Positions 12,459 through 38,294 of a stretch of DNA of 64,000 bases are shown here, one piece after another. This DNA comes from Halioglobus maricola (GTDB lineage: Bacteria; Pseudomonadota; Gammaproteobacteria; Pseudomonadales; Halieaceae). How positions within the stretch are numbered: position 1 is the first letter of the stretch; each line of letters starts with the position of its first letter. Made by a program: the position numbers and the translations under genes. The stretch lies in NCBI RefSeq assembly GCF_009388985.1, contig NZ_CP036422.1, positions 3,176,501 through 3,240,500 on the forward strand, given 5' to 3'. The notes beneath the pieces are model-generated. The model ran no database searches, was not told where the DNA came from, and saw only the letters and a list, made by a program, of their open reading frames with translations.

Positions 12459-14401
<1,943 letters not shown>

Positions 14402-24766: not shown

Positions 24767-24819
24767 GGGCAGCTCCTTATGAGATCAGCCGGCAGAATAC
24801 ACCGCACAGACAGCCAAGC

Positions 24820-25884
24820 TCAATCGGGACGGTAGAGGCCCTTACCCGTAATCTTGGGAAGATCCATCGCTGCAACCAGGCCCGGCGTGTGATTGACAAC
24901 CGCGGGAATGGCATTAACGATGGCCGTGGCGGTTTGAATCACACCCGCCACCGCGTGGTCGCCGTTGCGATCCTCCATGTCCATGGTAATTTCCATGCGT
25001 GGCTCACCTTCAATAATGGCCCGGTAACCTTTACCGCGGGGCCAGTCGGGCGCGATGTCTTCGGTGAGGCGAGTGACATGCTCCAGGACAATCGCGTCGC
25101 GGCCGTCAATCACCCCACGCACCTCAAAGCGCATTGCGCCTGTCGTGCCCGCTTCGAACAGGCCCATGCCGTTCGTCACGTCCTCATTCAGAGGGAGCCG
25201 CTCATGAACTTCATAGACCCGATCAAGCGTCACGCCCAGCCCCTCGGCGACGGAGTGCACTGCCCCACCCCACCCCAGCGACAACATGCCTTCCTGGAAC
25301 AACATACAGTCGTGGTCGGTCGGATAGCCGAAGCCCATCACTTCGCGAATGGTGTGTTCCTGTTCGTAAGTGGAGTAATTGATAACCTCCTGCATGCGCA
25401 CACTGGTCCAGTACTCGGACAGCCCGGTAAAGACCAATGGCATGGTGTCATTCGCAAAGCCGGGATCGATACCATTGTTGAAACAGGTGACACCGCCCTC
25501 CTCGCACGCGGCTGCCAGAGGGTCCGCCAGAAATGCGATTGAGGGGTTGCGCGGACACTGCAACATGAAGAGTGAACTGGCAACCACATTGATCCCGGCC
25601 CGCAAGCAACGCGTCTGATCTTCAGCCGCTTCCATCATCCGGGTTTCGGAATGCGCGGTGTACACGACACAGTCAGGGCCCAGGGCCAGTGCAGCGTCGA
25701 TGTCATCGGTGGCAAGGATACCCGTCGGCTCTCCGAGGCCCGCCAGTTCGGCCACATCCTTGCCCGCCTTGTTTTCGCTGGAAACAATATGCCCAATCAG
25801 CTCCAGTTCAGGGTGATTAAGCACAGCTCGCACTGCGTACTGGCCGACGTTACCCGTACCCCAGGTCACCACATTGATTGTCAT
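24820..25884 (-). CDS. Dihydrodipicolinate-reductase-like NAD(P)-binding protein
   Basis: A 354-residue protein with an N-terminal Rossmann fold (INVVTWGTGNVGQYAVRAVL; GTGNVG is the dinucleotide motif) resembling the N-domain of DapB and of amine/2,4-diaminopentanoate dehydrogenases. It lacks the HHxHKxDAPSGTA active site of true DapB, whose gene is at 12459-13265, so it is not the lysine-pathway enzyme. Families of this type are numerous in mycobacteria and marine gammaproteobacteria, often near lipid or steroid catabolism genes, but their substrates are mostly unknown. A GGGAGAA ribosome-binding site precedes the ATG. Confidence 0.75.
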   Translation of the reverse strand: MTINVVTWGTGNVGQYAVRAVLNHPELELIGHIVSSENKAGKDVAELAGLGEPTGILATDDIDAALALGPDCVVYTAHSETRMMEAAEDQTRCLRAGINVVASSLFMLQCPRNPSIAFLADPLAAACEEGGVTCFNNGIDPGFANDTMPLVFTGLSEYWTSVRMQEVINYSTYEQEHTIREVMGFGYPTDHDCMLFQEGMLSLGWGGAVHSVAEGLGVTLDRVYEVHERLPLNEDVTNGMGLFEAGTTGAMRFEVRGVIDGRDAIVLEHVTRLTEDIAPDWPRGKGYRAIIEGEPRMEITMDMEDRNGDHAVAGVIQTATAIVNAIPAVVNHTPGLVAAMDLPKITGKGLYRPD

Positions 25885-25942
25885 TATCTATTCTCCCGGT
25901 GATTGATTGTCATGAAACGTACGTAAGTGAGCCGCATCCGGA

Positions 25943-28309
25943 CTAGAGCCGGGTCACCAGGCCGCTATCCCCATCGAGGCGGACCCGGTCACCGGTTTGC
26001 AGAACACGCGTGCCGACACGTGTATTCACCACGCAGGGCAGCCCATATTCGCGCGCAATCACCGCACCATGGGACACTGAACTCCCAAGGTCAGTCACAA
26101 GCCCTGCGATCATGCTGAAGTACGGCGTCCACCCGATATCAGTGATAGGGGTAACCAGGATTTCTCCGGGTTGCAGGCTCGCTGCATCCGCCAGGGTTAG
26201 CGCCACCCGCGCCGTACCCTCGACGACACCTGTCGACGCGGGGCGCCCTTCCAGCGCACCATCGCCCGCTGCTGCAGCGGCGACTTCCACAGGCTGCGGC
26301 TTGCCCACTGAAATTTCAGGAAACGATAACTTCTGCTGAAACGGCAAGGCCTTGCGTCGCAGCTCTGCCTGCGCCACGCGTGCGTCACCTGGCGCGGCTA
26401 CAAATGCCGCCAGTTCGTCCATGCCAAAAAAGTAGACCAGGTCTGCATCGGGCAGATGGCCTTCCTCTGCAAGCAATGCGCCCAGTTGCGCAAACGCCAG
26501 CTTGAACCTGTGCGCTGCTCGCACCAGATGTGACTTGGTGTGCTCCCGCCGGCGAATAGCATTATGGGCGCGCGGCAGCACAAAACGCAGCCCGCGGCTA
26601 AGGCCGACCTCGTCGATCGGGGCGTGCGACGCCTGCTTGATAACGCCCCCGGCGAGCCGGGCACTCACTGCAGCCTGCATGCTCTGCACAAGCGTGGCGG
26701 GGTCATCGCCCCAGGAGGGATCGCGAACACAAAGTTCACGGTAGCCACGATGGCCATGGTCGCGAAGAAACGTCGATAGCCCTTCAGCCAGATCCGGTTG
26801 GCTGCGCAGCCAGCTGAGCGCGTCCTCAATGGAAGCTTGTGCAAAGCCAGTGGGCGCTTGAGGATGCTCCGCCACTTGCGCGACCAGCTCATCCAGCTCT
26901 GCCAACATCATCGCGCTCTCAACTTCGCTGGCACCCGCCAACAAACGCACGGCCTCAGCCTGCTCCTCCAGGCTCGCCTGGTTGGAACGCCTGGCGACCA
27001 TGTTTTCCACAATGGCTGACGTGAAGCCAGACAACGCAGAGCTCTGAATATGAACCGCCATAGCGTGATTGAAGAACCACGCCTTGCCTTCGATCTCGGC
27101 CCACTGTTCACGGCTGGTGGCGCACGACGCCAACTGGAATGCCGCCATCTCTGCATCAAAATCTTGCACCACACTGGGCGCTCGCCAACAGTAGTGCAAA
27201 AGCTTTCCGGTATTGATGACCCTGCGCCACAGCGGCTGTGGCGGCAGCGGTTTGAGCTCGGGCACCACGCGGCCACACAATGTCTGGGCCGTCTGTTCCA
27301 CACTCGAACCAAGCACAGCCGCGCCCATCACCACGTTACCGGTAAGGTTCAAAAAGAGATGGCCGAAGCCCCAGGCAGTGACCTGCCAGGCCGGGTCTAT
27401 GGCAGCCCGCGCACCGACCTTCACCTGCATGTCCTGCAAGCCGTAGTCGATACCCCAGCCGGTAAATGACCCGGTGAGCGGGCTCACGGCACCGGGCATC
27501 ATTTCGCTCACATTGGAGATGGTGAGCACGTCGTCCGGCCGCGGGAGCTCAGTATCGAATTCACCCAAATCTGCTGGCAATGTCGTGATAGGTCGGGCCT
27601 GTAACCAGTACAACACACCTGCTTCATCGATCGCCCACTCCAGGTCCAGAGGCTGCCCCGCGACTGCCTCGGCGCGTCGGGCATCCGCTGCAATTTCCTC
27701 GAGGGCTGTAGCGTCCAGCAACAATTGATCACCCGCCGAGTGACTGGCGACGCGAACACCGTCAGGGTCGATGACATAATGATCCGGCGTCGCTTCACCG
27801 CTCACCAGTGCCTCGCCAAGTCCAGCCACCGCATCGATCACAAGATGATCCCGGCGCGCACTCACCGGGTCAGCGGTAAACACCACGCCGGCATAACGTG
27901 CGTTGACCATACGCTGCACAACCACATTCATGACTGCACCAGCGTTGCCCGTCTGGCGCTGCTGATAGGCTTCAGCCCGGGCATCACCTGCAGATTCCAC
28001 GCACTGACGAATCGCAGCCTGCACCGCGTCTTCGCCCTGGACGTTCAGCACAGTATCGTACTGGCCGGCAAAGGACGCCTCGGCGCCGTCTTCACCCTGA
28101 GCGGACGACCGCACGGCAACAGGACCGGTGCCCAGGGTATTAAGGTGCGTGGATAGATCAGCCGGCGGCGCATCAGCACTGGCAGCGAGAATAACGAAGG
28201 CCGGCGGCACTCGCAGGCCCATGGATTGCAGTTGGGCCAGGCCGTGAGCCTTACCCCCGCATGAATCGTCCGTGATCTGATCGAGCGTTATTATTTTGGA
28301 CGTGGTCAA
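25943..28309 (-). CDS. PEP-synthase-like / rifampicin-phosphotransferase-like enzyme
   Basis: The 788-residue protein has an N-terminal ATP-grasp (pyruvate-phosphate dikinase N) domain: GGKAHGLAQLQSMGLRVPPAFVI, VAVRSSAQGEDGAEASFAGQYDTVL, MVNARYAGVVFTADPVS, LDLEWAIDEAGVLYWLQARPI. At the extreme C-terminus is a phosphohistidine domain (VTDLGSSVSHGAVIAREYGLPCVV, His in SHGA). ATP-grasp, a variable middle and a terminal His domain is the order found in rifampicin phosphotransferase and related PEP-utilising enzymes; the pyruvate-binding TIM barrel of PEP synthase is absent. It probably phosphorylates a small molecule via phospho-His; the middle domain (~290-660) that would bind it is unfamiliar. 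The TTG at 28309 is preferred because GGAG lies seven bases before it; a TTG 13 codons upstream has no such site. Confidence 0.8.
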   Translation of the reverse strand: MTTSKIITLDQITDDSCGGKAHGLAQLQSMGLRVPPAFVILAASADAPPADLSTHLNTLGTGPVAVRSSAQGEDGAEASFAGQYDTVLNVQGEDAVQAAIRQCVESAGDARAEAYQQRQTGNAGAVMNVVVQRMVNARYAGVVFTADPVSARRDHLVIDAVAGLGEALVSGEATPDHYVIDPDGVRVASHSAGDQLLLDATALEEIAADARRAEAVAGQPLDLEWAIDEAGVLYWLQARPITTLPADLGEFDTELPRPDDVLTISNVSEMMPGAVSPLTGSFTGWGIDYGLQDMQVKVGARAAIDPAWQVTAWGFGHLFLNLTGNVVMGAAVLGSSVEQTAQTLCGRVVPELKPLPPQPLWRRVINTGKLLHYCWRAPSVVQDFDAEMAAFQLASCATSREQWAEIEGKAWFFNHAMAVHIQSSALSGFTSAIVENMVARRSNQASLEEQAEAVRLLAGASEVESAMMLAELDELVAQVAEHPQAPTGFAQASIEDALSWLRSQPDLAEGLSTFLRDHGHRGYRELCVRDPSWGDDPATLVQSMQAAVSARLAGGVIKQASHAPIDEVGLSRGLRFVLPRAHNAIRRREHTKSHLVRAAHRFKLAFAQLGALLAEEGHLPDADLVYFFGMDELAAFVAAPGDARVAQAELRRKALPFQQKLSFPEISVGKPQPVEVAAAAAGDGALEGRPASTGVVEGTARVALTLADAASLQPGEILVTPITDIGWTPYFSMIAGLVTDLGSSVSHGAVIAREYGLPCVVNTRVGTRVLQTGDRVRLDGDSGLVTRL

Positions 28310-28421
28310 CTTTGGCTCCAGCGGCTTGTGACAATCAGCCTCGCACAACCAATGCGCAGGTCAATTTACCGGGAACGCCTATTTAAACCACGTTGTTGGA
28401 TTTACCTGGTTGCAATAGCTC

Positions 28422-31400
28422 TCAGCGCGCAGCGGACCCGCGCGCTGAGTTAAGGCGACGACCACCTGCAGCCATCAACAGCATGGCGATCAACCACACC
28501 ATACCCTGCGGACCAACCGGAATCGCCTGCGGGGTATTGGTGTCGGTCGTTGTGGGCGAACCGGGTGCAGGCGCTGGAGAAGGCGCAGGCAATGTGCCGG
28601 GAGGCTGTGTCAGACAAGCCGGCGTCGCCGGTGGATAACCCAGCGTTACTTCCACTTCCGGATTCACGCTGAGTCGCAGAACCAGTTCTGGTACCCGGTC
28701 ATCTGGCACTTCTGACCATACGCCATCTTCTTCGATCCAACCCGGCCAGCCCACACCATTGTCGAACGCATCGACCACCATACCGGGCCACAGAACGGTG
28801 CCTGTAGATGGCTGATTCTGCAGGCGCTGGACCAGACGGCCTTCAGTGCTGAGTAGCTCCACCGTCACATCAGAGCCGTCGTAGTTCAGCAGTTCATAGT
28901 CGATATACGCCGCATTCTGAATACAGGCAGAAGCGCTGCTGACCAACAGATCGACGGCCGACAGGTTCTCCCCAAAGTTGTTGTCGACACTATCTTCACC
29001 GGGTGCGAGGACAATCACACTAATCACGTCATCCACCGAATCATCGCCGCGCGAGACACCGTCGACGGTGCCCGCGGTATCCTGCCCATCGGTCCAATCC
29101 TCTGGATGCGTTTCAGTCACGGTGTACTCGCCCGGAGGCAGCCCTTCAAAGCTGTAACTGCCGTCCGGGCCAGTTACCACCACCAGGTTCACAGGCCCAG
29201 TCAGAGTGATAGTCACACCTTCTATACCCGCTTCACCCGGGTCAAAGACGCCGTCATCATTGGCGTCAAAATAGACATTGCCGGAGATGCTGACAGGCAG
29301 TACCTCGGAGAAATTGTTATCAGGAGAACCACTCACCTCGGCAGCATCACCACTGTCGGTAAGAATAATCTCTGCAACCTGACTGGTAGGGCTACCGCTC
29401 ACGGGATTGGAAGCCACACCTGGAGTGCCGCCGCTACCCGCATACGTCTCGATGGTGCCGGGCGTTGTAACGCTGTTGAGTGTATCGTCGGGTTGAGTTG
29501 GCTGGCACACCGAGTAAGTATCGGCAGCCAGCTCACTAAAGAGGTAATTGCCCTGGTCATCCGTCAGCGTCGAATCCAGAAGAGCGCCGCTACAATCAGC
29601 CCCAGTGCGCAGTTCGATCACGTTTCCGGGTATGGGCGTAGAGTCCCCTGCCAGATAAGTGCCGTCTGGTACCAGTTGGTTGTCCAGGAACACCTTGCCG
29701 GAAATGTAGCCCAGCGTGCTGACCTTGAGAGGCCCATTCGCTGGCGCGAGGTTAGTACCAAAGTTAGTCACCAGGGCACCAACAGGAATGCTGTTGAGAT
29801 AGTCACCTGCCTCGGGTGCTGTCACGTCTACGGACACCACACAGCCCCCTTCAGGGACCACCGTGCCACTCGCAATGGTAATTACAGACTCTCCGGCATC
29901 TGCATCAACTATGCCGGTTCCATCCGGACAGCTTGTCGTTATATTGGCGGGGTCGGCTACCACCATCTGCGCAGGATCACCTGGCAGATTATCAACAAGA
30001 TCTGCCTCCAGCGTCATCTCCGCTTCATTGTCATTGCCGATAACAATAGTCAGTGTTGAGGCAACGTCCGGCGCTACCACAGGTGGCGCAAATCCCTTGC
30101 TGACGGCCGGTGGTTCAGCCACAACAATTTGCGCCTGGGTGCCAGGCAAGTTATTGATGCCTTCGAAACTGGTGACTTCCCCTTCCGCAATTTCATTAAT
30201 GTAGGTACCCGGGATGTTACTGACGACATTGGCAGTGACAGTACAGATGGCACCGGTTTCACCCGCAGGTGGCAGGGTCGCTCCCGTCAGACGCAACTCA
30301 CGCCCGGCAGCTACGCCAGTGACGAGGCCATCAATACAGGTCGTTGCAATATCAGGCACGTCCGCCAACACCAGTCCATCTGGCAGGCTGTCGACAAAAT
30401 TCACCTCCGTCAGCGTTCCGGTATTCGGGTTTTCCAGACGGATGGTCAGAGGGGCGTCTGCGCCAGGCAGCCTCGCTGCCACGCCGGTGGTAAAGTCGAA
30501 GGGATCGTCCGCATCGAGGGTGAGGTCATCGAAGGCCTTGGTAACGATCAAGCGTTGACGCACTTCAAGACGGGCGGTGGTTTCCGGGTGAGGAACTGTC
30601 AAGCCGTTGGAGGTCAGGGAGTCTGCCTCGATGACGTTGAGATAGCTGTCTTCCACCGTGGAGTAGACATCAACTTCGAGATAACAAGATGCCGCTTCAG
30701 CACCCTGGGCCGGACCGATAGAACCACCGCTGAGGCGTACACTGGCAGCATCAGGGAAGTCCACCAGGGCACCGCCGCCGCAGTTGGAGAAGGCATTGGG
30801 TTCGTCCGCCACGAGCAGCCCAGAGGGAAACTGATCAACCAGCTCCATCGCGGTGATACTCTCGGCACGCGCATTGAATATGGTGATGCGCAGTGTTGAA
30901 ATCTCATTGGGGCCCACGACTGACGGCGTGAAGGTCTTGCTGATACCCGCGTCAGACGTTGTACTGAGATTGCTCTGGGCAAAGGAACTTGAGTTCGTCG
31001 CTCCCTGATCGGACTCGATGCTGTTTTCCGGGATTGTATTTGTAATGGTACCGACAGTCGTAGAAGTGACTCTTACCTGAACAGTACAACTGGCATCTGC
31101 CGCCAGGCTTGCTCCAGACAAACCGACACTCTGGGACCCAGGCGCCGCTGACACAATGCCGCCCGGGCAAGTGGTGGTCGCCTCAGGCGCTGCTGCGATC
31201 CGCATGCCGTTGGGCAAGGTACCGGTGGTGCCATCCATGGTGAAGTAGTCAGTGACCTGAACATTGGTGAGGTCCTGGTCTGCGTTGCGAATCTCAATTG
31301 TCAGCAGAGAAGATTCACCTGGCACAGCCACACCGGGTTCAATCGATTTGGAGATCAGCGGGACTTCCAGCGGGATGTAGTTCAACGTGGCGCTGATAGG

Positions 31401-34010
31401 ATTCCGATTGAGTAGGCCACCATCGGCCGTGACACCGCCAGCGGGAATCTCGTTAACCCAGTTCTCAGTGCCGGTCGCGATAACATCAAAGCGCAGTTCA
31501 CAACTCGCCAGGGGCGCCAGCGTTGCACCGCTGAAGGCGACACTGCTGTTTCCCGGCACGGCGTCGATAACAGTTGGGCCGTTACAGGTGGTGTAGCTGT
31601 TATCTGGATCTGCCACCAGCATGCCTGCGGGCAAATCATCCGTGAAGGCGACACCCGTAATCGGACGGGAGGCGTCCAGACTCACCAGCTCGATGCTGAC
31701 GGTGGAACGGCCGCCGGAGCCCGCCGAATCCGGCAGAAACAGTTTGCTCACTGCCAGCGCATCCGTGTAGGTGAGCGTGGCATCGTCCGATTCATTCAAG
31801 ATGGTCGTCGTTCCATTGGCGTTTTGGCGCACTGCAGAACTATTGACCGTATTTGGATACTCACCCGCAGGCCCAACCACGTCGACGGCGACCATGCAGG
31901 TGCCCGGGTCTGAACCATCGTAAGCTGGCACAGTGCCACCATTCAGCGCAATCGACGTTGAACCGCTTACCGCGGTCACCGAGCCGCCACAGGTATTGCT
32001 GATGTTCGCCGGGCTTGCCACACGCAGCTGCTGGAATGCACCGGCAGACGGCAAAGTGTCACTCAGGGTCAGACTGGACAGACTGCTGACAGAGCGATTT
32101 GCAACCGTGAAGCTCACACGCGAGGGAGTGCCCTCATTTACCGCAACGCTGTCCTCGCCATCGAACTGCTTGAGCACGGTCATGGTATCCAGCGGATTCA
32201 CCTCTGTGGAGCCAGACCCAACGTTATTACAGATGCGCGGAACAGTGCCGTAGCAAACATCGCCGGCAGCTATTTCATTTTCAGTGTCGCCACTGCCGTC
32301 AGGGTCGAGCATCGCCCAGAAAGAAATCGTACAAGTGCCAGGGGTGTTGGTAGCGGCACTTCGTCCCGGCACCGTTGGGATAGTAAAGGTGAATGAGCTG
32401 GCGCCAGGTGATGCGCCATTCAGATCCAGAGCGCCACAAGCTGGGCTGAGCGTGGGAGCAAAACCACCACTGAGAAGCAGGGTAGAGCCGTTCTGTAAGC
32501 TGTCGGTGACATCAACATCTGAAAGCACGCTGGTGGAGTAGTTCTGAATTTCCACCTCGTAGTTCACCGGGTCACCTGGTGATGCATCCTCCGGGCTAAC
32601 CTGTTTGAGCACTCGCAAGCGGTCAGCCACCAGCACAGTTGCAGACTGCGCCTGGCTCACGACACCATCCACCGTATCCACTGCGCCAGCAGGTATCTCG
32701 TTCGTATAGGTGGTTGGCGTGTCTGCGCCAGGCGTGGTGCCTGTATAAGCCACCCTGATGACACATTCGCCGCCACCGGGGATATCAAACCCGGCAACAT
32801 TGAAGCCCTCGCCACCGCTCTCGAGTGAGGTGCTGCCACCACAGCTGTTAGCGATATCAGCGGAGGAGCCGATCAAAAGGTTGCCGACGTAGGGAGCTGC
32901 TGAAATAGGATTGTCCGTAAAGCCATCAACGGTCAGGTCAGCTGAACCGCTATTGGTCAGCGTAATAGTGAATGTATTCTCTTCACCACTGGCGACAACT
33001 CCGGGGTTAAATCGCTTGCGAACGGCGAGCGGCGAGCGGGCGCGCACACGCTGGGACGCATCGCTGGCCGGGGCCAGGCCCTCGTCGCTGGTGAAGGTGT
33101 CAGTAGAAATGGTATTTGTGCGGGAGCGGGTGTAAACGCCATCAGAGTGGCGGGCCCGTACCTCCACATCGATCGTGCAGCTGGTATCTGGCGCCAGATT
33201 AATACCGGACACCGCCACCTGGGCCGCAGCACCTGTAGTCAAGTCGACTGTGCCACCACAGGTGCCCCCCACCGGGGTGCCTGCAGGCTCGATAATTGCA
33301 CCGTCAGAACCGGCCGTCGGGAATATATCCAGAAACCCGATATTGTTGAGGGAGACAGTGGAATCGCGATTATGCAGAGTAAAACGCAGCGTCTTGAGGG
33401 CACCTCCGACGATGACAACGTCGTCGCCCACGAATGATTTCTCCCACTCGGGTTGATCAGCGGACTGCAGCGTGATGCCTTGTGGGCCACCCGTATTGTT
33501 GGCGCCCTGGTCAGAATCGACCTCGCCCCTCAGCAGCGAGTAGACCAGCGTGGAGCTTTCGCCATCCACAGAATAGGCGACGATCGGAATATCCAGGTAA
33601 CAGAGCCCCAGTGCCGGGATGGTCAGGCCTGCGAGAGAAATATCTGGATTGCCCGGGGTGGTCGTGAGCACGCCTCCGCACTCTCCCTCATCAACAATGC
33701 TTGCAGGCCCGTTGACCAGCAGTCCGTTGAGCGCATTTGTCGGCAATGCCTTGCTGAAGTTGACGCCAGTAATAGGCGTGGCGGAGCCATTCGACAGGGT
33801 AACTCGCAGGCTCGTCGCCTCGCCCGGGTACACCAGAATACTGTTGGGTGTCGTCGCTCCCGGATTAACATTGACGCTGAAATCGGCATTGGTCGCCTGG
33901 GCCAACACCCCCTGCGACATGGCAAGCGACGCTAGGGCGACCACTGCACGAAACGAGGTATTGGACGGAATACGCCGGCCTATATTGCGGATAATGTTGC
34001 GGAATTTCAC
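28422..34010 (-). CDS. Very large secreted repeat protein (DUF11/DUF7933-type repeats, SdrD_B-like domains, C-terminal sorting-like helix)
   Basis: I take the GTG at 34010 as start: AGAGG lies upstream and the product then opens with a basic stretch and signal peptide ending SQGVLAQA. The 1862-residue protein has about ten consecutive beta-sandwich repeats of 120-150 residues, each with a K-x-F/L-x-P opening, 'LT(I/V)xxxN', 'TDxLPxGLxVA', a Cys in S/TTCGG, 'LSGAxLxxxxSC' and 'NxIPAGxVxS'. Each normally has two cysteines that could form one disulfide. Two SdrD_B-like domains follow; the second has FDANDDGVFDPGE, a calcium-loop-like motif. The C-terminus has a Pro/Thr-rich spacer, IPVGPQG, a hydrophobic helix and RRLNSARG, resembling the IPTL-CTERM class of sorting tags. 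It is probably an anchored surface adhesin or matrix protein, on the opposite strand to ssrA. Confidence 0.85.
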   Translation of the reverse strand: MKFRNIIRNIGRRIPSNTSFRAVVALASLAMSQGVLAQATNADFSVNVNPGATTPNSILVYPGEATSLRVTLSNGSATPITGVNFSKALPTNALNGLLVNGPASIVDEGECGGVLTTTPGNPDISLAGLTIPALGLCYLDIPIVAYSVDGESSTLVYSLLRGEVDSDQGANNTGGPQGITLQSADQPEWEKSFVGDDVVIVGGALKTLRFTLHNRDSTVSLNNIGFLDIFPTAGSDGAIIEPAGTPVGGTCGGTVDLTTGAAAQVAVSGINLAPDTSCTIDVEVRARHSDGVYTRSRTNTISTDTFTSDEGLAPASDASQRVRARSPLAVRKRFNPGVVASGEENTFTITLTNSGSADLTVDGFTDNPISAAPYVGNLLIGSSADIANSCGGSTSLESGGEGFNVAGFDIPGGGECVIRVAYTGTTPGADTPTTYTNEIPAGAVDTVDGVVSQAQSATVLVADRLRVLKQVSPEDASPGDPVNYEVEIQNYSTSVLSDVDVTDSLQNGSTLLLSGGFAPTLSPACGALDLNGASPGASSFTFTIPTVPGRSAATNTPGTCTISFWAMLDPDGSGDTENEIAAGDVCYGTVPRICNNVGSGSTEVNPLDTMTVLKQFDGEDSVAVNEGTPSRVSFTVANRSVSSLSSLTLSDTLPSAGAFQQLRVASPANISNTCGGSVTAVSGSTSIALNGGTVPAYDGSDPGTCMVAVDVVGPAGEYPNTVNSSAVRQNANGTTTILNESDDATLTYTDALAVSKLFLPDSAGSGGRSTVSIELVSLDASRPITGVAFTDDLPAGMLVADPDNSYTTCNGPTVIDAVPGNSSVAFSGATLAPLASCELRFDVIATGTENWVNEIPAGGVTADGGLLNRNPISATLNYIPLEVPLISKSIEPGVAVPGESSLLTIEIRNADQDLTNVQVTDYFTMDGTTGTLPNGMRIAAAPEATTTCPGGIVSAAPGSQSVGLSGASLAADASCTVQVRVTSTTVGTITNTIPENSIESDQGATNSSSFAQSNLSTTSDAGISKTFTPSVVGPNEISTLRITIFNARAESITAMELVDQFPSGLLVADEPNAFSNCGGGALVDFPDAASVRLSGGSIGPAQGAEAASCYLEVDVYSTVEDSYLNVIEADSLTSNGLTVPHPETTARLEVRQRLIVTKAFDDLTLDADDPFDFTTGVAARLPGADAPLTIRLENPNTGTLTEVNFVDSLPDGLVLADVPDIATTCIDGLVTGVAAGRELRLTGATLPPAGETGAICTVTANVVSNIPGTYINEIAEGEVTSFEGINNLPGTQAQIVVAEPPAVSKGFAPPVVAPDVASTLTIVIGNDNEAEMTLEADLVDNLPGDPAQMVVADPANITTSCPDGTGIVDADAGESVITIASGTVVPEGGCVVSVDVTAPEAGDYLNSIPVGALVTNFGTNLAPANGPLKVSTLGYISGKVFLDNQLVPDGTYLAGDSTPIPGNVIELRTGADCSGALLDSTLTDDQGNYLFSELAADTYSVCQPTQPDDTLNSVTTPGTIETYAGSGGTPGVASNPVSGSPTSQVAEIILTDSGDAAEVSGSPDNNFSEVLPVSISGNVYFDANDDGVFDPGEAGIEGVTITLTGPVNLVVVTGPDGSYSFEGLPPGEYTVTETHPEDWTDGQDTAGTVDGVSRGDDSVDDVISVIVLAPGEDSVDNNFGENLSAVDLLVSSASACIQNAAYIDYELLNYDGSDVTVELLSTEGRLVQRLQNQPSTGTVLWPGMVVDAFDNGVGWPGWIEEDGVWSEVPDDRVPELVLRLSVNPEVEVTLGYPPATPACLTQPPGTLPAPSPAPAPGSPTTTDTNTPQAIPVGPQGMVWLIAMLLMAAGGRRLNSARGSAAR

Positions 34011-34258
34011 TACAGACTGCCTCTTACATTTACGTGCTTCACGCCATGGGGACTGAACTCCGCCAGTTTTCTCACCCGATTCGCCGCGACTATACAGAGT
34101 ATGCTTACGCAAGTTTTGCCCAAAACGATGAGTTGTGGACCAGGTCACGAAACCCGCTAGATAGCGGTAATAAGCACGAGAAATAGATAATTTTGACTAA
34201 GTTTCACGACCCCAGGATGACTCGTCCGGAAATTTCCGCATTCAGGTGCCAAATTGGG

Positions 34259-34264
34259 TATAAT
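34259..34264 (+). promoter_or_regulatory. -10 element of ssrA
   Basis: TATAAT followed by GCGCG, 12 bases before the mature tmRNA 5' end; precursor transcription would begin near 34271. No strong -35 is visible; the GC-rich discriminator is typical of stable-RNA promoters under growth-rate control. Confidence 0.7.
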
Positions 34265-34276
34265 GCGCGGTTCTAC

Positions 34277-34667
34277 GGGGGTGATTTGGATTCGACGACG
34301 GATACAAAACCTTCTGGTGCATGTCGTGATGACAGCCAATCACGTTAATCGAAAGCTGTAACTTTATAGTTGCCAACGACGACAACTACGGTGCTCAGCT
34401 GGCTGCGTAAGCAGTCAAAAGACACCATCTAGTAGCTTCGGCTCTAGCGGTCATAAACAAGGTGCCAGTACCGCGCTTACTGACTGTCATATAGAACTGG
34501 ACCGCAGCAAGGTATGTTCTGGGCTTTGCTGTTAAAAATTACAGAACTCGCCAATCACGTCCTGCCCGTTGGGCTGTGTGCGGTTAACTTAATTAACGGA
34601 ATCTAAGCATGTAGAGCCAAAGGCAGCGGTCTGACGGACGCCGGTTCAATTCCGGCCACCTCCACCA
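34277..34667 (+). ncRNA. ssrA: Transfer-messenger RNA (tmRNA, SsrA), one-piece
   Basis: tmRNA rescues stalled ribosomes with SmpB, adding a degradation tag. The gene begins GGGGGUGAUUUGGAUUCGACG and ends with a T-arm (GGUUCAAUUCC) and CACCUCCACCA. The first seven and last seven bases pair to form the acceptor stem, including a G3-U pair, the alanine identity element, so alanylation by AlaRS is expected. CCA is genome-encoded. The 391-base length is within the usual range for one-piece tmRNA. The tag reading frame lies at 34372-34410. A Rho-independent terminator follows at 34681. The 3' end is repeated in diverged form at 35771. Confidence 0.98.
34372..34410 (+). other. tmRNA tag-peptide reading frame
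   Basis: The resume codon GCC begins a 12-codon frame encoding ANDDNYGAQLAA, ended by TAA. Its last residues LAA form the recognition end for ClpXP/ClpAP as in other bacteria; the DDNY start fits the gammaproteobacterial pattern, with an extra GAQ compared with the E. coli/Pseudomonas tags. Confidence 0.95.
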
Positions 34668-34673
34668 ACTCAA
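34643..34673 (+). repeat. Repeat copy 1: 3' end of tmRNA (att-like)
   Basis: These 31 bases, from the T-loop of tmRNA through CCA and six bases beyond, recur at 35771-35801 with 26 of 31 identical and no gaps. The first 11 and last 8 bases are exact. Tyrosine recombinases commonly integrate at exactly this part of ssrA. Confidence 0.7.
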
Positions 34674-34680
34674 GAAAAAC

Positions 34681-34703
34681 AGCCCCTTAACCGGGGCTTT
34701 TTT
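34681..34703 (+). terminator. Rho-independent terminator of ssrA
   Basis: AGCCCC (34681-34686) and GGGGCT (34693-34698) form a stem with a six-base loop, followed by six T. It ends eight bases before the ATG of the next gene. Confidence 0.9.
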
Positions 34704-34711
34704 ATGCGAGC

Positions 34712-35755
34712 ATGAAACTTACACACATCAGCGACACTCTCCTCGATGAGGCCAGCTCCCCCGCCCTACTGCGTGAGGCGCTGGACGCGTTCAGCGACCT
34801 TTGCAGTGCAGCCAGCGGCATCGTGCCCGACCGCAGCTTTGATGCCTGGGCTGGAGACTCGCTGCTGGACAACGGGGTAGCCATTAACCCACAGGCCGCC
34901 GCCCACTGCGTAACCGACTATCAGCGTAGTGTGATCTATATACGCGGTGCCTATGCGGCAATTAAAGCCGCCCGTGAACGGTTCAACGGCCCGATTCAGA
35001 TCCTGTACCCCGGCTGCGGCCCATTCGCCACATTGCTGCTGCCACTGCTGGAAAAATTCCACCCCGACGAACTCGAAGTGCACCTACTGGACATCCACCA
35101 GCAATCACTCGAAAGTGTTAGCGCGCTCATTCAGATTGTTGGCCTGGACGGGTATCGCATCACCTACGTGCAGGACGATGCCTGCCATTATCAGCACCCC
35201 ACTCGCCCCCACGTCATCATCGTTGAGACGATGCAGAAGTCGCTGGAGCAGGAACCGCAATTCGCCGTCACCGCAAACCTGGCGCCCCAGTTACACGAAC
35301 GTGGAATATTCATACCCCAGAAAATCGAGGTTGAGTTGTGCCTGGCTGATCTGGACAGTGAGACAGCTGCATTTAAACAAGGTGCGACGCTGGACCCTGA
35401 CATGCTGACAAAGACGGGCAAACGCCACCCACTGGACACTGTGCTCAGCCTCACACCCCAGCGCGCTGCCGCGCTGCTACAAAATGCTCAACAAGACGAC
35501 ACCACTGGCGCAATAACGCTGAACCCGGTGTACGTCACAATTCCTCCACTCGCCAAACTTGAAAATTTTGACGCCGTTTTGTTTACGCGTGTGCAGGCGT
35601 TTGAGCAGTACCAGCTACTGGACTATGAATCGGAGATCACCCTGCCGCTACGCTGCAGTGAACTGGCGCCGCTGCGGGCTGGAACGAGCTACCGGGTTAG
35701 TTTTCGGCTTGGGAGCTATCCGAAGTTCTGCATTGATCAGGGTGAGGATGAATGA
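34712..35755 (+). CDS. Methyltransferase-like (Rossmann-fold) protein, possible element cargo
   Basis: The 347-residue protein has an N-terminal helical region and a central Rossmann-type motif I, IQILYPGCGPFATLLLPLL (~95-113). Then come LEVHLLDIHQQSLES (motif II-like, Asp in the strand end), a second acidic segment YVQDDACHY and HVIIVETMQKSLEQEPQ, the usual order for S-adenosylmethionine-dependent methyltransferases. The C-terminal ~100 residues are beta-rich, as in PRMT-like enzymes. The substrate is unknown. The gene lies between the two copies of the tmRNA 3' end. The leader after the ssrA terminator is only eight bases and no clear Shine-Dalgarno sequence is seen, so how it is transcribed and started is unclear. 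Confidence 0.6.
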   Translation: MKLTHISDTLLDEASSPALLREALDAFSDLCSAASGIVPDRSFDAWAGDSLLDNGVAINPQAAAHCVTDYQRSVIYIRGAYAAIKAARERFNGPIQILYPGCGPFATLLLPLLEKFHPDELEVHLLDIHQQSLESVSALIQIVGLDGYRITYVQDDACHYQHPTRPHVIIVETMQKSLEQEPQFAVTANLAPQLHERGIFIPQKIEVELCLADLDSETAAFKQGATLDPDMLTKTGKRHPLDTVLSLTPQRAAALLQNAQQDDTTGAITLNPVYVTIPPLAKLENFDAVLFTRVQAFEQYQLLDYESEITLPLRCSELAPLRAGTSYRVSFRLGSYPKFCIDQGEDE

Positions 35756-35770
35756 GGGGCTGTGGGTTTG

Positions 35771-35801
35771 GGTTCAATTCCCGCCGCCCCAAACAACTCA
35801 A
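35771..35801 (+). repeat. Repeat copy 2: diverged tmRNA 3' end (relic attachment site)
   Basis: GGTTCAATTCC...CAACTCAA repeats the tmRNA 3' end at 34643-34673 with five substitutions, two of which alter the CCA region, so it cannot act as a functional acceptor end. It lies 16 bases after the methyltransferase stop. Bases 35802-35940 beyond it are A+T-rich and without a gene. Confidence 0.65.
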
Positions 35802-35940
35802 TACCGGTAATAATGTATGTGTTGTTTCAACATTTCCCGGAAATCCGAACTGGAAGTAACGAAGAGCAACTAGGGAAGTTAACGAATTTAACGGGAATGA
35901 ACTTAGATATCGTAATGTAGCGGTCAGCTTATCCTCTGGT

Positions 35941-36264
35941 CTATTTGTACGATTTACAAAAACCACCTGAGGTATACATGCCTGTCGGGCACCTATCCCC
36001 CACCTTTTCGATCACTTCCTCTTCCGCCGCCTTTGCACCATAGGCTTTGCAGTAGCCTCCCGATTTGTACCAGCCCGTTGGGCACCGGCCACCCGAGGTA
36101 TTCGCGACTATCTTGATGCCACGCTTATCCGTGCTGGAAAAGGTCTTGCAGTAATCGCCGGAGGAATAGCTCCCGGTGGGGCAGTCGCCATCTACTTTCG
36201 GGAATACGTCAGCGTGGGTGTACGCGGAGAACAACAGGCAGGTGATCAGTAGTTTCGATTTCAT
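35941..36264 (-). CDS. Small secreted protein with three Cys-pair repeats
   Basis: I start it at MKSKLLITCLLFSAYTHA, which gives a typical signal peptide; the open frame further upstream is not needed. The mature ~90 residues consist of three copies of a 15-residue unit with pattern C-P-T-G-x-Y-x-S-G-x-Y/F-C-K-x-Y/F: CPTGSYSSGDYCKTF, CPTGWYKSGGYCKAY and CPTGMYTSGGFCKSY, separated by ~18-28 residues. Each unit could close a small disulfide loop in the periplasm or outside. I do not recognise a function; it resembles short Cys-repeat peptides of unknown role. It lies on the A+T-rich side of the ssrA-linked scar and is divergent from the DUF427 gene. Confidence 0.65.
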   Translation of the reverse strand: MKSKLLITCLLFSAYTHADVFPKVDGDCPTGSYSSGDYCKTFSSTDKRGIKIVANTSGGRCPTGWYKSGGYCKAYGAKAAEEEVIEKVGDRCPTGMYTSGGFCKSYK

Positions 36265-36443
36265 AGGACTAAGGATAATGCCTTGGGGCGCCAAATAAAC
36301 CGTGTACGCATATACATGTCGGCTTTTCAGGCGTGTTCGGTCGAGTAAACAAACCTGCGCCAATCCTGCGCCACGCAATCAGGCACTGAGCTGATTCATA
36401 TCTCCCTCCGTATCTACCGTATAGCGTTCGCGGAGATCAACCC

Positions 36444-36956
36444 ATGTGGCAATACACTGGCAAACAGCGCCCACCCTTCGCCGATGAGCCCGGCCCGGAC
36501 CAGGAATCGGTATGGGATTACCCACGGCCACCCGCTCTGGTGCCCTGCGATGCGCTCGTTGAGGTATTCGATGTGAGCTTACTGTTGGCGTCTACCACGT
36601 GCTCACTGCGCATTTTGGAAACTGCCAGCCCACCCACCTTTTATCTGCCGCCTGACGCCGTGGACTGGAGCCAGCTGGTGGAAGTGCAGGGCTCGTCTTT
36701 CTGTGAATGGAAAGGGGCCGCCACTTACTGGTCTCTGGCAAATGATCCAGGTGGCCCTATGGTGGGCTGGAGCTATGAGCAACCCAGCAGCAGCTTCGCG
36801 GCGATCATGGGCTACACCTCCTTCTATCCTCGTCTCCTAAAGTGCCATGTTGACGGCGAGCGTGTTCAGCCACAGCCCGGGGGCTTTTACGGAGGATGGA
36901 TCACCAGCAAGGTAGCGGGCCCGTTCAAAGGCGAGCCGGGCACCGGGCACTGGTAA
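36444..36956 (+). CDS. DUF427 domain protein
   Basis: The 170-residue protein matches DUF427 from end to end: MWQYTGKQRPPFADEPGPDQESVWDYPRPP, LETASPPTFYLPPDAVDWS, CEWKGAATYW, GYTSFYPRLLKCHVDGERVQPQPGGFYGGWITSKVAGPFKGEPGTGHW. DUF427 proteins are small beta-rich cytoplasmic proteins of unknown biochemical role, frequent in actinobacteria and proteobacteria. GGAG with a suitable spacing precedes the ATG. It is convergent with the DM13 gene and divergent from the Cys-repeat protein. Confidence 0.88.
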   Translation: MWQYTGKQRPPFADEPGPDQESVWDYPRPPALVPCDALVEVFDVSLLLASTTCSLRILETASPPTFYLPPDAVDWSQLVEVQGSSFCEWKGAATYWSLANDPGGPMVGWSYEQPSSSFAAIMGYTSFYPRLLKCHVDGERVQPQPGGFYGGWITSKVAGPFKGEPGTGHW

Positions 36957-36968
36957 CAACGCCCGGGA

Positions 36969-37448
36969 CTACTGTCGATACTGCGCGGCCGTAATGAACT
37001 GCCCAAACGATTCGCACCACACTATGACCGTGTTGTAGTCTTCGATGCTCACGCCAGGGGGTACGTTGACCACAAAGTTTTCAAACGTATCGATATTACC
37101 GACCTGCTCCATCTGCGGCTTCAGGGCCTCGAAGGCAGCCTCGGTTTCCACAAAGCGCGGTGACAGGTAGAGCCGGTAAGCGGGGCCGGGTGCCAGAGAG
37201 CCCCTGAACACCACGGCGTCTGGCGACAGAGATACTGTCCCCTCGCCCCAGTGAAGAAAATCACTGTCCTCGAGATCGCGCCTGAATTCGCCCTGGTATT
37301 GGGCGCCCTCCTCTACCGCGCTTACCTGCCCGAGTTCGGGAGGCGCCGGGGCCATCAGGATCGGCAGGGTGTAGATGCCCAGCACGAAGCCAAGCACCCC
37401 GATACCGAGGTGGGACACTATCAACAGGAGTTTTCTTGCGATCGTCAT
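36969..37448 (-). CDS. DM13 domain protein, membrane-anchored
   Basis: The 159-residue protein has an N-terminal membrane helix (LLLIVSHLGIGVLGFVLGIYTLPIL). The DM13 domain follows: FLHWGEGTVSL, VVFRGSLAPGPAYRLYLSP, GNIDTFENFVVNVPPGVSIEDYNTVIVWCESFGQFITAAQY. DM13 is proposed to be a redox or electron-transfer-related domain with a nearly invariant Cys (here in VWCESF). It would face the periplasm. It may form a unit with the DUF3429 and DCC proteins upstream on the same strand, but 25 bases separate it from the former and no clear ribosome-binding site is seen. Confidence 0.8.
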   Translation of the reverse strand: MTIARKLLLIVSHLGIGVLGFVLGIYTLPILMAPAPPELGQVSAVEEGAQYQGEFRRDLEDSDFLHWGEGTVSLSPDAVVFRGSLAPGPAYRLYLSPRFVETEAAFEALKPQMEQVGNIDTFENFVVNVPPGVSIEDYNTVIVWCESFGQFITAAQYRQ

Positions 37449-37473
37449 AGCGCTGATTGGCGGGGAGTTTCCA

Positions 37474-37905
37474 TCACGCAGGTAACTGCAGAACCGACAA
37501 CATCAGAGCCAGGCTGGCCACCGCGCTGAGGCGCAGCCGCAAGGTAGCGTAGTAATCAGGCTGCGGCCCGAACATCGGGTGCATGCGTTCGACAACTATG
37601 GCCCCTGCCAATAGCAACGCCTGCAGGAGCAGGTTGGCCCGCAGGCCCAAGAGCACAAAACCAAGGCACGCCGCGATCACCACCACATTGCTGGCGACCA
37701 GGATAACCGGAGCCTGACGCAACAGCGCAATGCCCCACCAGGCGCCCATCAGAAAGCAGACAATGGCTAGGCTATAGGCAGCTATCGCGGGGCCGACAAT
37801 CTCCGCGGGGTTTGTCGATACAGACACCGCCAGCGGCGCCGCAAGAAACGGCAGTAAGCCGGCCCAGCCCAGACGCGAGGCTGTGCGGGCGGTCGCCGTG
37901 GCCAT
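37474..37905 (-). CDS. DUF3429 membrane protein
   Basis: This 143-residue protein has four or five hydrophobic segments and the DUF3429 pattern: RLGWAGLLPFLAAPLAV, YSLAIVCFLMGAWWGIAL, RMHPMFGPQPDYYATLRLRLSAVASLAL. The inner-membrane protein family is of unknown role. The start is the ATG overlapping the stop of the DCC gene by one base (TGATG), so the two are translationally coupled; the longer frame upstream lies inside the DCC gene. Confidence 0.8.
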   Translation of the reverse strand: MATATARTASRLGWAGLLPFLAAPLAVSVSTNPAEIVGPAIAAYSLAIVCFLMGAWWGIALLRQAPVILVASNVVVIAACLGFVLLGLRANLLLQALLLAGAIVVERMHPMFGPQPDYYATLRLRLSAVASLALMLSVLQLPA

Positions 37906-38285
37906 CAGGGCTGGCCTTGTTGTACAGCGCAGCCATACATACGCGCATACCGCCTCTGGGCCCACACATTGTAGGCGCGTTCCGCCACCCACCTGATCCC
38001 GGGCAACATCAGAATCCGCCACAAAATTCCGAAAGAGGTGTGCTGCCACATGGCAACGTTGGCTGCCAGACCAGTCACCATGGCACCGTCATCGCGCTGC
38101 AAGTGCAGTGATCTCAACAGCGCATCCGTGGACGGCAAGTTGTCGCCGCTCGCGGTGTGGATATTCTGGAAGCCAAGAGTCGGCCGCGCGAGTCGCTGCA
38201 ACAGGGCGACCTCTCGGCGGCACAGGGGGCAGCTACCGTCGTAGAACAAGGTGTCCATTTCCAACCATTCTCCGTTCATCGTCAT
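37905..38285 (-). CDS. DCC family (DUF393) thiol-disulfide oxidoreductase-like protein
   Basis: The 126-residue protein carries the family motif LFYDGSCPLCRREVALLQRL with a D-G-x-C-x-x-C arrangement (Cys-19 and Cys-22), from which the DCC name comes. Members are predicted small thioredoxin-like proteins. The C-terminal half has PGIRWVAERAYNVWAQRRY, also typical. The start could be the ATG two codons later. It lies nine bases after the photolyase stop on the same strand and is coupled to DUF3429, so photolyase, DCC and DUF3429 are probably cotranscribed. Confidence 0.88.
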   Translation of the reverse strand: MTMNGEWLEMDTLFYDGSCPLCRREVALLQRLARPTLGFQNIHTASGDNLPSTDALLRSLHLQRDDGAMVTGLAANVAMWQHTSFGILWRILMLPGIRWVAERAYNVWAQRRYARMYGCAVQQGQP

Positions 38286-38294
38286 GCAGTTATT

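Follow-up and report, generated by a model that had tools for sequence, protein, structure and literature searches.

Displaced ssrA ends are an accepted sign of genomic islands (PMC4383910). The locus analyzed here lies in a window of 64,000 nucleotides (the whole stretch of Halioglobus maricola DNA under study), and resembles the tDNA islands of Islander in that the target gene, ssrA (tmRNA), is regenerated and a 3′ fragment, correctly oriented and configured, is displaced. The integrase filter and the 2-kb minimum size that Islander applies would, however, reject the unit in the window (PMC4383910). Set against the Islander criteria, this unit has a displaced same-orientation 3′ fragment, no integrase and a length of 1128 bp, below 2 kb. 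In Dehalococcoides, ssrA islands likewise form tandem units downstream of the gene with direct repeats of the ssrA 3′ end, and 15 reported islands lack an integration module (PMC3146451). They differ from the window unit (1.1 kb, one gene, no recombinase) in that 16 islands have an integration module with a serine recombinase, DsiB (PMC3146451).

A second group of systems involves homing endonucleases. In fungal mitochondria (Allomyces atp6, Glomus), PMC3630166 describes mobile endonuclease ORFs that bring a new in-phase gene end and leave the native end downstream, and the unit proposed for the window would be alike in this respect; the mitochondrial cases concern carboxy-terminal parts of protein genes, whereas here an RNA gene of a bacterium would have its 3′ end exchanged, and an endonuclease is missing from the window unit. 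Group I introns in the tmRNA T-loop, some with LAGLIDADG genes, share both the target and the endonuclease class found in relatives of our organism (PMC11915505); there the endonuclease genes lie inside the introns (36 of 883 intron forms), whereas here they lie outside, after interrupted as well as uninterrupted ssrA genes. Collaborative or intronless homing, in which a free-standing endonuclease gene sits near an intron site, is matched by the interrupted ssrA loci reported below, although PMC3984707 describes collaborative homing in phages; in the bacterial loci cleavage is putative, and the window has neither intron nor endonuclease. In the literature searched, with subscription journals mostly beyond reach, no endonuclease gene next to ssrA but outside an intron turned up.

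Results

The ssrA Gene of the Window Has a Second, Displaced 3′ End

The features of the locus, all on the forward strand, are:

34277–34667 (+): ssrA (tmRNA) with tag ANDDNYGAQLAA; ARAGORN, and Rfam RF00023 at 180.5 bits
34643–34673 (+): copy 1, the resident ssrA 3′ end from the T-loop to past the CCA, with a T-stem unlike the family form
34681–34703 (+): terminator hairpin and T-run directly 3′ of ssrA, within the putative inserted unit
34712–35755 (+): intact methyltransferase-like gene of 347 amino acids (ORF), the single gene seen between the copies
35771–35801 (+): copy 2, the displaced ssrA 3′ end, with a 4-base deletion before the CCA and an AACAAC flank

Copy 1 and copy 2 are identical at 26 of 31 positions (84%) and lie 1128 bp apart. 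The recurrence of these 31 bases had been noted in the original prediction, and copy 2 proved to be unique in the genome outside ssrA: when the whole genome (4,306,437 bases, one contig) was searched with up to three mismatches to the family-consensus ssrA end GGTTCAATTCCCGCCGCCTCCACCA, only two places matched, ssrA itself and copy 2, and the reversed-pattern control gave no matches. This two-place match is far beyond chance. ARAGORN detected no tRNA at copy 2. The stretch following ssrA (34668–34711) gave a folding z-score of −3.09, in line with its terminator; a candidate terminator hairpin in the flank of copy 2 was rejected, its z-score being −0.46. The earlier description of the DNA beyond copy 2 as A+T-rich stands in direction, as the G+C content of 35802–36400 is 49.9% vs 57.7% over the window, but the enrichment is only mild.

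The Displaced End Resembles the Family Form and the Resident End Departs From It

Copy 2 with its flank matches the ssrA end and flank of one relative (G013) at 30 of 31 positions with one 4-base deletion (TCCA before the CCA); against copy 2, the organism's own ssrA end, at 26 of 31, ranks only fourth of 67 by alignment score. Up to one C/T difference, the family form of the T-arm (GCGGGTTCAAYTCCCGC) is present in 51 of 60 loci without an interrupted T-loop, and the resident T-arm of the window (GCCGGTTCAATTCCGGC) is one of the nine that depart from it. AACA directly follows the CCA in 11 of 51 cases. Because copy 2 keeps the family T-arm form and the resident end does not, the resident end looks derived and copy 2 looks the older of the two; copy 2 was presumably once a working ssrA end. 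It had been called simply a diverged copy, a description that needs correcting, as it is the resident T-arm that departs from the family form.

The acceptor strands add a complication. The resident strand reads GCCACC, with its partner U, as in the nearest congener (G002), and copy 2 reads GCCGCC. The immediate native end should have read GCCACC, so that the insertion may be older than this change, or copy 2 may have come from elsewhere.

The Gene Between the Two Ends Is Intact and Patchily Distributed

As predicted, the single gene between the copies (ORF 34712–35755) is methyltransferase-like. Its product had no match in Pfam, NCBIfam or PDB sequences. A structural model (pLDDT 79) searched with Foldseek had PRMT5 as the best hit (E = 1.8e-12, but with a TM-score of only 0.46 and an rmsd of about 11), and PRMT6 structures were recovered too; the fold is tentatively predicted to be like that of protein arginine methyltransferases. 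The double-E loop of these enzymes has two glutamates nine residues apart, and E172 and E181 of the methyltransferase-like protein are invariant among eight sequences. Compared with the homolog of HTCC2148 (L067), the reading frame is kept, with dN 0.20 and dS 1.10; a dN well below dS points to selection for function.

Homologs were found in 10 of 57 relatives besides the organism itself, including 3 of 7 congeners, and at 20 named loci. This patchy distribution agrees with the expectation that the gene would not be at this site in all relatives. At none of the 20 named loci is there an ssrA-end copy above 10 bits, and neighbors of the window gene (at least 100 aa, E ≤ 1e-15) are common to none of the 19 other loci compared. 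One genome (G018) has the methyltransferase gene on the ssrA strand, 12.8 kb downstream. In a tree of 19 rows, for which two of the 20 loci (L085 and L086) were omitted, the window protein groups (100/99) with the congener HTCC2148, HTCC2080 and three metagenome-assembled records, apart from the congeners Pseudohalioglobus lutimaris and Co_bin.268; the grouping is compatible with transfer or with old paralogy. Among viruses (IMG/VR), 72 pattern matches yielded no confirmed homolog; on plasmids, four Pseudoalteromonas records matched at about 30–32% identity over 44–63% of the protein.

The start codon lies 8 bases past the T-run of the terminator, and no sigma-70-like site was found in 34100–36500 (shuffles average 1.7). 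Since the start adjoins the T-run and such a site was not found, expression of the methyltransferase may depend on read-through from ssrA.

An Uninterrupted ssrA End in a Congener, and the Surroundings of the Locus

The original prediction proposed that a relative lacking the methyltransferase should have a single uninterrupted ssrA end, followed by the sequence found here after 35801. The first part is borne out by the congener G002, which has a family-form ssrA end, no copy in 13.9 kb downstream and no methyltransferase match; the second is not, as the downstream DNA of G002 differs, and colinearity with the window resumes only at about 42484. No congener has the sequence found after 35801 downstream of its ssrA. 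The interval 35757–38290 has matches in four of eight genus genomes (our own included), the other three being short or DUF427-like and away from ssrA. The DUF427 gene itself (36444–36956) was considered as a right anchor and rejected: 14 of 57 relatives have it, but in G002 ssrA is about 1.4 Mb away.

Upstream, the block of genes that congeners have in front of ssrA reaches as far as 24784 in the window, and about 9.5 kb of other DNA follows before ssrA. This DNA (24823–34148), between a TauE-family gene and ssrA, includes a PEP-synthase-like ORF and an ORF of 1908 amino acids. In 5 of 7 congeners about 0.5 kb separates the end of the TauE-family gene from the ssrA 3′ end. The DapB-like gene at 24823–25887 has a close relative 2–3 kb downstream of ssrA in G024.

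The ssrA 3′ End Appears as an Insertion Hotspot Across the Family

A tmRNA search of the family gave some match in 109 of 115 genomes, with 80 over the cut-off. Oriented ssrA genes with 163 to 17,676 bases of downstream sequence were available as 67 loci; the other 13 of the 80 genomes had a partial match, or a contig end at or soon after ssrA. These 67 loci (735,761 bases, both strands) were searched with a weight matrix of family ssrA ends, in which copy 2 scores 22.4 bits; the reversed control gave one match above 12 bits. With ssrA itself set aside, 20 matches exceeded 12 bits, of which 18, in 16 of the 67 loci, lie downstream on the ssrA strand and two elsewhere. As many contigs end soon after ssrA, 16 of 67 is a lower bound. 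Judged from these sequences, insertions strike the ssrA 3′ end repeatedly, which makes it a hotspot in the family. Two further candidates fall outside the 18 matches: one at +157 in L049 (17.2 bits with the first matrix, below 12 with the second) and one at +794 in L050 (17.1 and 10.0 bits).

The inserts include tyrosine-integrase islands, units of about 155 bp (some in tandem) and one-gene units. In four genomes (G008, G014, G023, and G033) a PF00589 domain starts about 0.8 kb downstream of ssrA, and relatives of the integrase of L063 lie directly downstream of ssrA in further family loci. Far copies of the ssrA end are present in L063 (+7387) and L136 (+7341), where the similarity starts at CGCCGCCTCCACCA, without the T-loop. 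Copies that are part of further inserts are located at +607 in L061, where no ORF in the 607-bp interval could be named, at +10190 in L102, and at +6525 and +9141 in L120; the first gene of the L120 island is a tyrosine integrase (PF00589, 35.4 bits vs a cut-off of 27.1). One-gene units were seen in the window (1128 bp), in G001 (662 bp) and in G006 (640 bp). In G001, ssrA is followed by a terminator, a single endonuclease ORF and the displaced copy; G006 has a unit of about 155 bp first, and then the endonuclease ORF and its displaced copy.

The small units, of which 13 from 11 loci were aligned, consist of a terminator, an inverted T-arm-like stretch, GGTGGCCGAGCG..GCGAGGTCTG and an ssrA end from the middle of the T-loop. 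They are conserved, sometimes tandem, and occur in several genera: downstream of ssrA in L049, L050, L051, L052, L099, L100, L101, L122, and L133, near +7.4 kb in L063, and at 14030–14185 (−) in L059. Rfam returned weak sub-threshold matches only. Another contig of G005 (L168, around 1501) has a further ssrA-end copy together with a 155-bp unit, perhaps the far end of an ssrA island.

Displaced Copies That Include the T-Loop Coincide With Changed Resident T-Arms

A displaced copy that includes the T-loop (GGTTCAAYTCCCGC...; T-loop-type) is found in 4 of the 60 loci without an interrupted T-loop. Such copies accompany 4 of the 9 changed resident T-arms and none of the 51 unchanged ones (Fisher p = 2.6e-4), and in the 45 loci with at least 1.2 kb of downstream sequence the numbers are 4 of 6 vs 0 of 39 (p = 1.0e-4); three of the four loci belong to one genus and are not independent, so that the p-values overstate the case. 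No T-loop-type copy was detected upstream of ssrA or on the other strand. In one genus, the resident T-arm is changed in 7 of 8 genomes examined. Both marks are present in the window, where the displaced end includes the T-loop and the resident T-arm is changed, and the same marks are found in L120. There the fourth T-loop-type copy (+6525) bounds the island that has the tyrosine integrase as its first gene. As this insert carries an integrase, the T-loop boundary does not single out an endonuclease, and the notion of an endonuclease as the exclusive cause of T-loop-type copies was rejected.

A LAGLIDADG Endonuclease Family Resides Beside ssrA

The one-gene units of G001 and G006 encode a LAGLIDADG protein of 144 amino acids. 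The G001 form matches LAGLIDADG_1 (E = 7.8e-6) and LAGLIDADG_3 (E = 1.2e-5) in Pfam, and PDB profiles gave weak matches to I-MsoI and I-CreI. A search of 140 family genomes gave nine with a member, and one of 390 order genomes gave six; five are shared, so that the total is 10 genomes; our own genome has no match. Nine of the 10 have the gene and ssrA on one contig, about 1 kb or less apart. In the tenth, G003, the gene stands at the beginning of a contig, and the contig with ssrA runs on for 163 bp past ssrA before it ends. The terminator of ssrA in G003 appears to be split by a transposon-like insertion at the point where the assembly breaks (end of L048, start of L155). Four of seven congeners (G001, G003, G004, and G006) have the endonuclease gene at ssrA; for G003 and G004 no displaced copy was found in the sequence available, the G004 contig ending 60 bp past the gene. 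The family is not confined to ssrA in all life: 52 viral loci and nine phage records hold distant relatives, at 24–50% identity.

In 7 of the 67 loci (L141–L147) the ssrA T-loop is interrupted by about 250–295 bases, after which the acceptor strand is restored. Five of the seven have a complete or broken LAGLIDADG gene immediately 3′ of ssrA and outside the interruption. We checked one of the seven, L145, against Rfam: no intron was reported at the gathering score, while with permissive settings RF00028 aligned over its full length (28 bits vs a cut-off of 50; E = 3.1e-5 in a 501-base search). On the basis of this sub-cut-off alignment, the T-loop interruption and the introns described in PMC11915505, the interruptions are probably group I introns.

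Single-motif LAGLIDADG proteins act as dimers on near-palindromes. The T-arm is near-palindromic and may suggest a target for such a dimer.

Discussion

We consider it likely that a short DNA unit entered the ssrA 3′ end at the T-loop, supplied a new end and displaced the old one. In support of this, the displaced end is unique in the genome, the cargo gene is intact, and relatives have been hit repeatedly at the same site. The suggestion that copy 2 is an insertion scar thereby gains weight, with the ssrA 3′ end as a hotspot in the family. Besides a new ssrA end, the unit would have comprised a terminator and a single PRMT-like methyltransferase gene, still intact. It would have entered at the T-loop, and its own ssrA end would now complete the functional gene; the previous end would have been pushed 1128 bp downstream, where it then lost 4 bases.

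Which enzyme made the insertion we can only infer. Homing-type 3′-end replacement and the remnant of an integrase island come out about equal, with a slight lean to homing-type break repair. The agent would be the repair of a break after cutting by a LAGLIDADG homing endonuclease, such as resides at this spot in four congeners. As the endonuclease is absent here, the reading requires either action in trans or loss of its gene. Counting against this is that the window unit has neither a recombinase nor an endonuclease gene. The GCCGCC strand of copy 2, the missing displaced copy in the available sequence of the endonuclease-bearing G003 and G004, and the different DNA after ssrA in all congeners also weigh against the favored explanation. 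A broader version of this reading, which we regard as doubtful, is that the single-motif LAGLIDADG family, found in its 10 bacterial genomes beside ssrA only, spreads by replacing the ssrA 3′ end with an uncut T-arm version, together with or instead of a T-loop group I intron, and that repair of its cuts may also install other one-gene units, including the methyltransferase unit.

A serious competitor, which we place somewhat short of probable, is that a tyrosine-integrase island integrated at ssrA and that deletions removed the integrase and most of the cargo, leaving the methyltransferase between attL and attR. A tyrosine integrase was also the agent named in the original prediction. In favor of such a remnant are the integrase domains about 0.8 kb past ssrA in G008, G014, G023, and G033, the L063-type integrases of further loci, the far ssrA-end copies of L063 (+7387) and L136 (+7341), and the position of tmRNA as the most enriched tDNA target in Islander (PMC4383910). 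The closest parallel is L120, where a T-loop-type copy stands behind a Pfam-confirmed integrase and the resident T-loop is changed, as in the window. The copies of L063 and L136, which combine an L063-type integrase with a far copy, nevertheless start at CGCCGCCTCCACCA without the T-loop, whereas the window copy includes it. The window holds no integrase trace: ssrA-adjacent integrases used as tblastn queries gave no convincing match there, and of the six PF00589 matches in the genome, the three that were listed are more than 400 kb from ssrA. For the proposed integrase, then, L120 with its displaced copy of the same kind speaks for it, and the lack of a convincing match in the window and the LAGLIDADG gene at this spot in 4 of 7 congeners speak against it.

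An event without any mobile agent, in which tandem duplication or local rearrangement placed a copy of the ssrA end after a neighboring methyltransferase gene, strikes us as quite improbable. The region has been rearranged, given the roughly 9.5 kb of other DNA between the end of the conserved block at 24784 and ssrA, and in G018 ssrA does have a methyltransferase gene 12.8 kb downstream in the same orientation; a recent tandem duplication would, however, give near-identical ends, while copy 2 has the family T-stem strand and the resident end does not, and the same arrangement with other cargo is seen at the same junction in G001 and G006. That copy 2 arose by chance or is a piece of some ordinary tRNA gene is scarcely credible. 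In its favor, the T-arms of tRNAs have GGTTCAANTCC in common, but the similarity extends through the tmRNA acceptor strand into the flank and reaches 30 of 31 with one gap against a relative's ssrA end and flank; no other place in the 4.3 Mb matches with up to three mismatches, and ARAGORN finds no tRNA there.

What the window contains is a genuine scar of a known kind, small and limited to one gene, and unusual as a variant. One-gene units at ssrA are missed by island finders that, like Islander, require an integrase and a length of 2 kb or more (PMC4383910). The presence of one endonuclease family beside interrupted and uninterrupted ssrA genes would offer a test of how introns meet free-standing endonucleases at one target. 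If the homing-type reading is true, a bacterial RNA gene would have been colonized by the 3′-end replacement known from fungal mitochondria, and this would explain why the tmRNA T-arm is changed in 7 of 8 genomes of one genus while the same form is kept in 51 of 60 loci without an interrupted T-loop.
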